From Desulfolutivibrio sulfodismutans DSM 3696 (GTDB taxonomy: Bacteria; Desulfobacterota; Desulfovibrionia; Desulfovibrionales; Desulfovibrionaceae), in the NCBI RefSeq assembly GCF_013376455.1, contig NZ_CP045504.1, forward strand, positions 3,989,001 to 4,053,000: a stretch of DNA of 64,000 nt, given 5' to 3'. Numbering within the stretch: the stretch's first letter is position 1; every line of letters begins with the position of its first letter. A model generated the notes under the pieces. It had not been told where the DNA came from and did no database searches. It saw nothing but the letters and a program-made list of their open reading frames with translations. This document shows, one piece after another, positions 11,979-41,665 of the stretch. The position numbers and the translations under genes are program-made.

Positions 11979-11986
11979 GGGGGTTC

Positions 11987-12016
11987 GGGGGAAACTTTTT
12001 GAAAAAAGTTTCCCCC
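11987..12016. terminator. Terminator hairpin (repeat family copy 1)
   Basis: Arms GGGGGAAACTTTTT and AAAAAAGTTTCCCCC, a symmetrical A/T-cored hairpin able to terminate in both directions. It sits just after the DUF2333 stop on the minus strand. The same core recurs at 28041-28066. Confidence 0.75.
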
Positions 12017-12022
12017 GATATC

Positions 12023-28034: not shown

Positions 28035-28072
28035 CCAGGGAGGAAACTTTTTGAAAAAAGTTTCCTCCCTGG
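28035..28072. terminator. Terminator hairpin (repeat family copy 2)
   Basis: Arms CCAGGGAGGAAACTTTTT and AAAAAAGTTTCCTCCCTGG, nearly 18 paired bases with a one-base loop. The core GGAAACTTTTT-G-AAAAAAGTTTCC is identical to that at 11990-12013. It separates the ATPase and marR genes. Confidence 0.75.
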
Positions 28073-36885: not shown

Positions 36886-37236
36886 GCGCGCTGGGCATCC
36901 TTGTGGAGGTGTGGGAACGGGACGGCCTGTGCCTTTTATGCCGGGTTGCCGGGGAAACGGCAAGGGGGCGGCCGCCGTCGGTCGGCTGTCGCCCCGGGTG
37001 GTGTCGCCGTGGTGGCATCGGACAAGAATGTTGCATGCCGAAATCCGGCGTGTCTGTGAAAATTATGTTGCAAAAATGTCAAAATTTACCTATACGCACT
37101 CCACCCGAACGGCGCCGGTGGGCGCGGCGCGGACATCGCTTCTCGTTTTCAGGACAGACGATGCCCGTGACCCCCGGAGCCTGTGCAGGGGAAACACGGC
37201 CGCGCGGCGGCCAACACTTTCAAGGGGGGGTTATCT
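36886..37236. other. Divergent regulatory region, kinase / amtB
   Basis: 351 bp between divergent genes; contains the amtB promoter at 37068-37096. No coding remnants. A tight sigma-54 site (TGGCAC-N5-TTGC) was looked for and not found. Confidence 0.5.
37068..37096 (+). promoter_or_regulatory. Probable amtB promoter
   Basis: TTGCAA (37068-37073), 17-bp spacer, TATACG (37091-37096), four of six matches in each hexamer, in the only AT-rich stretch of the spacer. It would give a leader of about 135 nt. Confidence 0.42.
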
Positions 37237-38812
<1,576 letters not shown>

Positions 38813-38822
38813 GACAAAGTCC

Positions 38823-38849
38823 CCGGGAGAGGGCGCCGCCCTCTCCCGG
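38823..38849. terminator. Strong hairpin after glnK
   Basis: Perfect 12-bp stem CCGGGAGAGGGC / GCCCTCTCCCGG with loop GCC, starting 11 bp after the glnK stop. No T run, so it is an RNA-stabilizing or attenuating structure rather than a classic terminator. Confidence 0.6.
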
Positions 38850-38860
38850 ACCCTCTCCCG

Positions 38861-38883
38861 CCGGGGGGAATCATTCCCCCCGG
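38861..38883. repeat. Second hairpin in the glnK-glnD spacer
   Basis: Perfect 11-bp stem CCGGGGGGAAT / ATTCCCCCCGG with a one-base loop; REP-like in form. Confidence 0.7.
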
Positions 38884-38896
38884 ACCCCCCGAACGG

Positions 38897-38958
38897 GGTT
38901 TCTCATACGGCCAGGGGCCTGGGAGCATGCTCCCAGGCCCCTGGCCGTATGAGAAACC
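38897..38958. repeat. Perfect 62-bp palindrome between glnK and glnD
   Basis: Each 31-base arm (38897-38927 and 38928-38958) is the exact reverse complement of the other, with no loop; the centre is GCATGC. The left arm begins GGTTTCTCATACGGCCAG. It could extrude as a cruciform or act as a two-sided binding site. It lies 62 bp upstream of the glnD start. Confidence 0.95.
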
Positions 38959-39019
38959 GGTGCGGGGCGCAGGCGGGCGTGCTCCACCGGAGCGAAGCCG
39001 TCGGAGGCCATAAGCACCC

Positions 39020-41665
39020 ATGACCATTCCCGATCATCTGCCCCAGAGCGCCCGGGCCTTCGCGGCCTCGCGCCAGGCCCTTTTCGCCGATCTCGACGCC
39101 GGGAGGACCGGCGCCGGGTTCGTGGCCGCCCTGTCGGATCTGGCCGACCGCTATTTCGGCGAACGGCTGGCCGAATTCGGCCGCGGCGCCAGAGGAGGCG
39201 GGGAATTTTCCCTTGTGGCTGTCGGCGGCTACGGGCGGCGGGAACTGTGTCCTTTCTCGGATCTGGACGTGCTGCTGCTGTTTCCCGGAGAGCCGCCCGG
39301 GTGGGCCGGGGAACTGGCCCGGTTTCTGTTTTTTCCCCTGTGGGATTTGGGCCTCGAGATCGGGCACGGGGTGCGCGGCGTGGACGCCTGCCTGGATCTG
39401 GCCCGAAGCGATCATCAGGTCTTGGCGTCGTTTCTGGACGCCCGGCATCTGTGGGGCGACGTCCGGGTCTTCGCAGAGCTTGCCGCGCGCATGTCCCGGG
39501 AGGTCTTCCCCGAGCGGCGGGCGGCCTTCGCCCTGTGGCTGGCCGAGGCCAACATCGGCCGCGGCCGGGTGCACGGCGAGGCCGGGGCGCTCCTGGAGCC
39601 GCAGCTCAAGGAGGGCCTGGGGGGGCTTCGCGACGCGCATCAGGTGCGCTGGCTGTCGCATCTGGCCGATCTGGCCGGGGGCTATCAATCCCCGGCGGCC
39701 GAGGCGTTCGCGGCCTTGTCCCGTGATGCGGCGTTCCTGCTTGTGGTCCGCTGCCATCTGCACCGTATCGGCAACCGCAAGTCCGACAAGCTGCCCTTCG
39801 AGGTCCAGGAGCACATCGCCGCCAGACTGGGCTTTACGGAAAAAGACGGGGCGCTTGGGGTGGAGGTGTTTCTGGCCGAGCTTTTGCGGCGCATGTCCCG
39901 GGTGAAAAATCTGCGCGAGGCCTTGTGGCCGGGGCTGGCCGTGGCCCTGGGGGCCCTGTCCGACCGTCCCCCGGAGGTGGTGGGCGACGGCGTGGCCAAG
40001 GGGCCGTCCGGGCTGGATTTCGCCCCGGGGCTGAGCGATGCCCAGGCCTTTTCCCGGTTGTTTCTGCTTTTCGGCACGGCCGTGCGCACGGGCGAGCCCC
40101 TGGCCTTTTCCGCCGTGCGCCGGGCTCGGGAACTGGCTTTTCGGCACGGGGACCGGCTGTGCGCCGACCCGGCGGCCCTGGCCTCCCTGGTGGGCATCCT
40201 GGCCGCCGACGCCTCGGGCCGGGTGGCCGAGGCCCTGTTCGAATCCGGGGTGCTGTCGGCCATGCTGCCGGAATTCGCCCGGGTGGGGCATCTGGTCAAA
40301 TTCGACCTGTACCATGTGCATCCCGTGGGCCGACACAGCCTGGAGGCCGTGCGGCGGCTGGCCGAGGCCGGGGCCTTTCCCGAGAGCCGCTACCATGCGC
40401 TTTTTACCAGCGTGGCCCACCTGGACCGCTTGATCCTGGGCGCGCTGTTTCACGACATCGGCAAGGGACTTGGCGGGGAGCACGCCGAGAAGGGGGCGGG
40501 CATCGCCCGGTCGGCCCTGGCCCGGTTCGGCGTGGACCCGGAGACCGTGGAGGAAGTGGCCTTTTTGGTGCGCGAGCACCTCTTTCTGGCGGACACGGCC
40601 TCGCGCCGCGACCTGTCCGACCGCGACGTGGCCGCCGCCTGCGCTGCCCGGGCCGGGACCATGGACCGCCTGAACATGCTATTGCTTTTGACCTATGCCG
40701 ATGCCCGGGCCACAGGGCCGTCCGCCTGGACGGGATGGAAGGAAAGCCTGGTCTGGGAGCTGTACCGGCGCACGGCCCGAATGCTTTCCGAGGGCAACCT
40801 TTTCGACGAGCACGACGCCGGACGCATGCTGCGCACCCGGGACCGGGTCCGGGCCGCCGCCCGGGGGATCATGCCCGAGGCCGAGGTCGAGGCCTGTCTG
40901 GACCAGATGCCGCCGCGCTATCTGATCATCCTGGATGTCGCCGACATCACCCGGCACCTGGGGCTGGTGGCCAGGTTGCGCCAGGAGGCCAGGGATCTGG
41001 CGGTGCGCCTGCCCCGGGGCCGGGCCGGGGCGGCAGGGGAAGAGGCTGCCGGATATGCCCCGGGGGCGGTGGTCTTGGAGGCCCGGCCCGCGCCCGGGGG
41101 GGCCGGGCATGAGCTCACGGTGGCGGCCATGGAGACGCCGGGGCTTTTCGCGGTCCTGGCCGGGGTCTTGGCCCTGCATGACGTGAACATCCTGTCGGCG
41201 GAGGTGTTTTTGTGGGGGGACGGCACGGCCATCTACGTCTTCGGGGTGTCGGACCCGCCGGACGCCCTGTATGCCGAGGAGTTGTGGACCCGGGTGGGGG
41301 GGGCGGTGCGCTATGCGCTTTTGGGCAGGCTGGCCCTGGAATACCGCCTGGACCAGAAACGTCGGTCGCCTCTCGCCTGCCGACAGGGACAACCGGGAGG
41401 GCCGGTGGCCGTGCAGGTGGAAAATAAGACCTCGGCCCTGTATACGCTCATTGAGATTTCGGCCCCGGATCGCCTGGGGCTTTTGTACGACATCGCCCAT
41501 GTCATGGCGGGCCTGCGCCTGGAGGTGCGGCTGGCCAAGGTGGACACCCTGGGGGAGCGGGCCCGCGACGTGTTCTACGTGCGCGGGGCCGACGGCAAAA
41601 AGATCGAAGACGAGGGGCAGGCCCGGGAGATCGAGGCCGCGCTCATGCACCGGCTGGGGTGTTGA
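39020..41665 (+). CDS. glnD: PII uridylyltransferase / uridylyl-removing enzyme
   Basis: An 881-residue bifunctional enzyme that uridylylates PII at low glutamine and reverses it at high glutamine. Nucleotidyltransferase motif GGYGRRELCPFSDLDVLLLF (Gly/Ser-Asp-x-Asp), HD phosphohydrolase motif near residue 478 (FHDIGKGLGGEHAEKG), and two C-terminal ACT domains (about 690-760 and 800-875; MAGLRLEVRLAKVDTLGERA). Length and domain order match GlnD. It follows the palindromic spacer, and its substrate gene is just upstream. Confidence 0.95.
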   Translation: MTIPDHLPQSARAFAASRQALFADLDAGRTGAGFVAALSDLADRYFGERLAEFGRGARGGGEFSLVAVGGYGRRELCPFSDLDVLLLFPGEPPGWAGELARFLFFPLWDLGLEIGHGVRGVDACLDLARSDHQVLASFLDARHLWGDVRVFAELAARMSREVFPERRAAFALWLAEANIGRGRVHGEAGALLEPQLKEGLGGLRDAHQVRWLSHLADLAGGYQSPAAEAFAALSRDAAFLLVVRCHLHRIGNRKSDKLPFEVQEHIAARLGFTEKDGALGVEVFLAELLRRMSRVKNLREALWPGLAVALGALSDRPPEVVGDGVAKGPSGLDFAPGLSDAQAFSRLFLLFGTAVRTGEPLAFSAVRRARELAFRHGDRLCADPAALASLVGILAADASGRVAEALFESGVLSAMLPEFARVGHLVKFDLYHVHPVGRHSLEAVRRLAEAGAFPESRYHALFTSVAHLDRLILGALFHDIGKGLGGEHAEKGAGIARSALARFGVDPETVEEVAFLVREHLFLADTASRRDLSDRDVAAACAARAGTMDRLNMLLLLTYADARATGPSAWTGWKESLVWELYRRTARMLSEGNLFDEHDAGRMLRTRDRVRAAARGIMPEAEVEACLDQMPPRYLIILDVADITRHLGLVARLRQEARDLAVRLPRGRAGAAGEEAAGYAPGAVVLEARPAPGGAGHELTVAAMETPGLFAVLAGVLALHDVNILSAEVFLWGDGTAIYVFGVSDPPDALYAEELWTRVGGAVRYALLGRLALEYRLDQKRRSPLACRQGQPGGPVAVQVENKTSALYTLIEISAPDRLGLLYDIAHVMAGLRLEVRLAKVDTLGERARDVFYVRGADGKKIEDEGQAREIEAALMHRLGC

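Follow-up and report, generated by a model that had tools for sequence, protein, structure and literature searches.

The 62-bp palindrome between glnK and glnD is probably (we put the chance at about 0.6) a copy of the third module, C, of a composite repeat that is dispersed genus wide, with arms maintained by template copying and a role as a stem at the 3′ ends of genes. The succession of modules A, B, and C recurs across these genomes; the C stems are near perfect and specific to their locus, the elements are placed at gene 3′ ends, and the two arms of a stem change together. When a perfect palindrome stands out in these genomes, it may belong to this repeat family rather than being a locus-specific switch.

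The window, i.e., the whole stretch of 64,000 nucleotides of DNA that was analyzed, contains the following features at this locus:

38474 to 38812, + strand: glnK-like P-II gene, the upstream neighbor (P-II models matched end to end, below their curated cutoffs)
38823 to 38849, + strand: module A hairpin with 13-bp arms and a 1-nt loop (dispersed copies)
38861 to 38887, + strand: module B, the strongly conserved hairpin CCGGGGGGAATCATTCCCCCCGG with ACCC as its tail, by which the family is recognized (motif search)
38897 to 38958, + strand: module C, here a perfect 62-bp loopless palindrome of locus-specific sequence
38959 to 39019, + strand: right flank with GGAGCGAAGCC and CGGAGGCC (by-eye comparison with other copies)
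39020 to 41665, + strand: glnD, the downstream neighbor (TIGR01693, above cutoff)

The open reading frame at 37183 scores above the NCBIfam cutoff for an ammonium transporter, and the 112-amino-acid frame at 38474 matches the P-II models over their full length (E = 3e−46), under their curated cutoffs. The original prediction of a perfect loopless palindrome at this place holds: its arms (38897 to 38927 and 38928 to 38958) have 31 nucleotides each, are 100% complementary, and have 0 nucleotides between them. The two other hairpins that it placed in the 207-bp spacer are also real; they lie at 38823 to 38849 and 38861 to 38883 (the module B stem, with 11-bp arms). Folded as single-stranded DNA, positions 38890 to 38965 give a z score of −11.8, and the whole spacer folded as RNA reaches −148.5 kcal/mol (z = −9.9); in both cases, none of 200 dinucleotide shuffles was as stable. 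A chance origin of the palindrome is negligible. No match to Rfam 15 at the gathering score was found in the window.

For comparison within the genus we used three genomes: that of the window (G000), a draft congener (G001, a MAG of 150 contigs), and a congener in one contig (G002). In 464 kb of G000 scanned for inverted repeats with gaps of up to 10 nucleotides (the window plus 20 evenly sampled 20-kb stretches), the palindrome is the longest perfect one, and the runner-up has 22 bp. A 400-kb sample of G002 contained ten perfect hairpins with arms of at least 20 bp, one of 30 bp and nine of 20 to 24 bp. The statement that such palindromes are rarely kept does not apply here, since near-perfect hairpins with arms of at least 20 bp are routine in G000 and G002. 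A perfect 30-bp hairpin of G002 (L124:15180-15242, AAGCATAATAATAATGGGTAAACCCCCGGC...) is unlike the composite family. The arm of the focal palindrome, searched genome wide at up to 3 mismatches, matches itself alone, on both strands.

The spacer is otherwise repetitive. Compared with its own genome, the whole spacer gave at least 53 matches (with 40 of 97 candidates scored), mostly over the two upstream hairpins, and the other copies that we read follow a common layout. Hairpin A (either GGGGCTGCCGCCCC or a longer hairpin of the form GGGGAGG...CCTCCCC) is followed by CCGGGGGGAATCATTCCCCCCGGACCC, the B module (CCGGGGGGAATCATTCCCCCCGG ACCCCC), and then by a long, locus-specific, near-perfect hairpin C, which starts some 32 bases past the point where the B search motif begins; often there are also a module D (CGGACGCGAAGCGCG...AAAGTTTTTGAA) and a module E (CCAGGGGGGAAACTTTTT..AAAAAGTTTCCCCCCTGGCCGCCGGAGGCC, with T and A runs inside). 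E-type hairpins with A/T runs within the stem are also seen in the window at 28035 to 28072 and 11985 to 12018. The focal C is atypical in being loopless and in having neither the CCGGGCG outer stem nor a downstream E hairpin, and GGAGCGAAGCC and CGGAGGCC in its right flank look, by eye, like remnants of modules D and E.

At up to 3 mismatches, the B motif matched 30 times on the forward strand and 25 times on the reverse strand of G000, 11 and 11 times in G001, and 41 and 40 times in G002, while the reversed control had no match; as the motif is nearly palindromic, these figures include some places twice, once for each strand. At up to 2 mismatches, the B pattern occurred in 55 of 199 genomes of the family that were examined, from 12 of 44 genera, and, in a second set of 247 genomes, in none of the 40 that belong to the same order but not to the family. 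One genome of the family (G080, genus g26) has 130 strand matches and the 13 other examined genomes of its genus have 5 to 27, an excess that is perhaps due to a recent expansion.

We oriented at least 125 distinct B sites (52 in G000 and at least 73 in G002) and looked for bulge-free hairpins in the 110 bases after each B core. With G002 represented by the matches listed, 98 of the 125 sites have a hairpin with a score of at least 10, 69 of them perfect, and 27 have no hairpin that reaches this score. At a score of at least 14 there are, among the matches listed, 92 hairpins (38 in G000 and 54 in G002) with median arms of 22 bp, of which 66 are perfect and 80 lie in the C position, the remainder including E-type hairpins; the left arms of all 92 are distinct. 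The commonest three-base tips of these strong hairpins are TTC (15) and GTC (12), and GCTTCGC and its complement GCGAAGC recur among them. GCGAAGC is an unusually stable DNA mini-hairpin.

The elements have a marked position relative to genes. Among 124 distinct sites (for G002, among the matches listed), 48 are in tandem spacers in the same sense, 42 are in tandem spacers in the opposite sense, and 29 lie between convergent genes; divergent genes surround 1 of the 120 classifiable sites, and 4 further sites are unclear. Of the control spacers of at least 150 bp in the sampled sequence, 62 of 258 are divergent. Gene strands around both sites and controls come from a crude GC-frame caller, which gave one place (L194) two inconsistent labels. 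These counts indicate that the elements follow gene ends and would work, if at all, in both orientations, although the shunning of divergent spacers could reflect mere selection against promoter damage.

Judging from this placement, the element likely acts at the 3′ ends of genes, as a stem by which transcripts are shielded or terminated. Transcribed from either strand, it would form an array of very strong stem-loops at the end of the transcript, which would shield the upstream mRNA from exonucleases and/or lower read-through; at the focal locus, it would separate expression of amtB-glnK from that of glnD. The elements resemble intrinsic terminators in being strong GC-rich hairpins behind genes, with T and A runs in the E module and T-followed hairpins in the same spacer of relatives, but they occur in both orientations relative to genes, and the focal C has no T-tail. 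No T-rich tract was found directly behind any hairpin on the + strand, C included, and the same search on the − strand gave one match, at hairpin A, with 0.8 expected by chance. We therefore rejected the C hairpin as a canonical intrinsic terminator; given the lack of a T-tail, our best guess is an array of stems at the 3′ end that would protect the mRNA upstream of it or reduce read-through. The same two effects have been proposed for REPs (PMC3733652, available in part).

REP/REPIN repeats are the closest known kind to the composite family. Both are short, dispersed, extragenic, and palindromic (55 strand matches of the composite in G000, 81 in G002, and 0 in the control), and a variable hairpin interior with compensatory changes has been reported for REPINs as well (PMC3116915, in the accessible portion). 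They differ in that the composite consists of several hairpins (A-B-C, often with D and E) and in that its C hairpin is locus specific and mostly perfect (66 of the 92 strong hairpins among the matches listed). According to the accessible text of PMC3733652, REP/REPIN elements have a GTAG or CGTC tag at one end; within 12 nucleotides of 80 C hairpins we found no consistent tag (GTAG, 1; CTAC, 0; CGTC, 6; GACG, 3). A RAYT-type Y1 transposase (PF01797) was not found in G000 or G080, while G002 has two adjacent half-length matches; in a control, 5 of 14 genomes matched this model, Escherichia coli included. A RAYT/REP identity was rejected, as no Y1 transposase was found in G000 and the hairpins have no consistent tag. 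Our searches of the open-access literature listed no paper with a title or opening abstract on the composite family, although open-access coverage is not proof of absence. The accessible portions of PMC12306157, PMC3733652, PMC7999016, PMC11124144, and PMC3116915 give no account of it, and a search of PMC2267715 for four terms found none of them.

It is possible, if doubtful, that the family is a nonautonomous mobile element, similar to REPINs or MITEs, which moves via a single-stranded DNA hairpin, so that an enzyme would select for pairing and any effect on mRNA would be incidental. The many dispersed copies, the existence of a subfamily of closely similar copies, the uneven copy number (130 in G080 versus 5 to 27 in its 13 genus mates), one syntenic site of G002 without the element, and the compensatory changes in REPIN hairpins (PMC3116915, seen in part) would all agree with such mobility. 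It is opposed by the lack of a Y1 transposase match in G000 and G080, with just the two half-length matches side by side in G002, and by the free variation of the stem sequence outside short shared ends. The syntenic site concerns a complete A-B-C-D-E element of G000 at a convergent site (L184:940-1210), which is absent from the corresponding spacer of G002 (L253:2440-2620); a clean target site is unreadable there because the G002 counterpart holds a different, unrelated hairpin. A search for an empty site of the L173 element found its flanks at two separate places in G002.

How the two arms change bears on the template copying that we propose. In G002, too, the corresponding position between glnK and glnD is occupied by a perfect palindrome, so the symmetry is conserved in a relative; its absence from every relative had been named beforehand as a refutation of the observation. 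The arms of the G002 palindrome have 33 nucleotides and, aligned with those of the window both without constraint and pair by pair, differ from them by mirrored substitutions and indels: between the two species, 25 pair columns are the same, 5 are changed on both sides, 4 are mirrored indels, and none is changed on one side. We extended this comparison to 14 orthologous pairs of sites in G000 and G002 with both flanks matching (at mostly 72 to 91% identity) and a hairpin present in both species, where 22 of the 28 hairpins are perfect. Here, 242 columns are the same, 40 show two-sided changes, 73 are mirrored indels, and 4 are one-sided, so that one-sided states account for 4 of 117 changed pair columns. 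Since bulges were disallowed and site pairs were dropped if either species, or each of them, lacked such a hairpin (e.g., L159/L226 and L161/L110), one-sided changes and losses are undercounted in these numbers.

A recent subfamily within G000 gives the same picture. Its stem is mostly shared, and eight base pairs vary two-sidedly, in one group of four close to the loop and another at the base of the stem. The gap-free alignment comprises 9 of the 11 hairpins of the chosen loci and leaves out L171, in which an insertion of 1 bp is mirrored, and the second hairpin of L168, which is of another type. Of 198 cells, 99.0% pair, with 16 two-sided changes, 1 one-sided change, and 2 unpaired cells, and sliding the partners by 1 to 3 columns leaves at most 45.5% paired. 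In 500 shuffles, neither the observed pairing and covariation score nor the counts of two-sided changes were ever reached; of the five measures, only the number of further pair types does not exceed its shuffles (156 of 500 reach it). Kinship of the copies inflates this shuffle test, while the scarcity of one-sided states is independent of the shuffles.

Such data could also arise if selection acted on an RNA hairpin alone and point mutations were compensated stepwise through G·U intermediates, which we regard as unlikely. Strong covariation in the G000 subfamily, the very stable RNA fold of the spacer, the location of the sites behind genes, and the fact that each of the six named relatives examined has a hairpin of some kind in this spacer speak for this explanation. 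However, if RNA pairing alone were guarded, G·T mismatches should exceed A·C mismatches in the transcribed sense. The 34 mismatches in 2,114 pairs of the strong hairpins are 12 G·T, 12 A·C, and 10 others; in the reading direction of tandem genes there are 4 G·U, 11 A·C, and 8 others, and at convergent sites 4 G·U versus 3 A·C. A wobble excess is thus absent, with numbers that are small. The fewness of one-sided changes also argues against stepwise compensation, as do the 73 mirrored indels, which are impossible by wobble steps. Mirrored change together with equally rare G·T and A·C mismatches therefore favors templated DNA copying from arm to arm. We rate templated copying above stepwise compensation, while the data do not separate it from hairpin-dependent mobility.

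In the mechanism that we favor for the composite repeat, a change in one arm would be transferred to the other when replication switches template, either intrastrand or interstrand. Because the arms would form a DNA hairpin that allows copying from one to the other, the stem would stay perfect while its sequence drifts fast. How long stems keep perfect pairing is an old question, to which template switching is one proposed answer: according to the available part of the work of Monttinen and Löytynoja (PMC8794818), a single switching event can both generate a perfect stem and restore pairing, while the part that switching plays in the upkeep of short stems is less clear and the evidence for maintenance is, by the authors' own account, circumstantial. 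The hairpins described in that part are like ours in their multibase mirrored changes that restore pairing and in the single-event origin of perfect stems; they lie in rRNA and microRNA genes, whereas ours belong to an intergenic repeat of bacteria that is present in dozens of parallel copies. Copying by template switching predicts mirrored indels, a scarcity of intermediates, and no excess of wobble pairs, and we found 40 mirrored substitutions and 73 mirrored indels against 4 one-sided changes between the species and 16 two-sided cells against 1 within the subfamily. More tentatively, the C modules might represent a class of fast-diversifying, locus-specific DNA hairpins with arms kept identical by an active templated process, either general or dedicated, so that every locus would have a perfect stem of its own behind its gene. 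Since the genomes of two species each contain dozens of these hairpins in parallel, the family offers an unusually clean bacterial data set for the template-switch idea and is well suited as a natural test of the way in which perfect hairpins persist in DNA.

A locus-specific nitrogen-control element for glnK/glnD (an operator, a cruciform switch, or an attenuator) is very improbable. Its location between a P-II gene and the gene for its uridylyltransferase, the palindromes in two congeners, and a hairpin upstream of glnD in all six named relatives (within 420 bases of the glnD match) would fit such an element. On the other hand, the same A-B-C architecture is present at dozens of other loci, and none of 27 other glnK-like loci in the family (L034 to L060, 3.3 to 3.4 kb each) has a perfect hairpin whose arms exceed 13 bp and whose loop is no longer than 8 nucleotides. 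In five of the six relatives (L063 to L067), the hairpin is unrelated to the focal one in sequence and loop (arms of 11 to 14 bp, loop of 9 to 14 nucleotides) and has T-containing sequence right behind it. A nitrogen operator was also rejected as the spacer has no match at up to 2 mismatches to a sigma-54-like pattern (a consensus typed by hand). The symmetrical operator and the element setting the PII-to-GlnD ratio that had been suggested are thereby disfavored, and neither the perfect palindrome nor the composite is conserved in the spacer of these relatives, which is evidence against a role for the palindrome in nitrogen control specifically. A hairpin element as such, acting as RNA or DNA, is still likely. 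Members of the family usually have a hairpin of some kind between glnK and glnD, in keeping with a transcript end.

The hairpins of L063 to L067 sit in the last 140 bases before the glnD match, and four of the five share a common CCGGGAAGG..CCTTCCCGG core with outer pairs that differ in mirror fashion. In the glnK-glnD spacer of the sixth relative, another member of the Desulfovibrionaceae (L068:2820-2990), we observed a perfect 22-bp E-like hairpin together with B-like and A-like hairpins in reverse order.

Finally, a sequencing or assembly foldback, which would yield just such perfect loopless symmetry and had been raised as a caveat, was rejected as practically negligible, because the one-contig G002 has its own palindrome with different yet equally symmetrical arms changed in mirror fashion, a G001 contig (C111) has the window's right arm and crosses the center by 9 bases of the other arm, and the same hairpin pattern runs through the whole repeat family. 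Draft assemblies can break at such composite elements: C111 ends inside the palindrome, a second contig (C69) ends at the B hairpin, and the 10 measured of the 22 listed B-motif copies of G001 all lie 0 to 44 bases from a contig end, with at least one other copy (C150:444) located away from contig ends.
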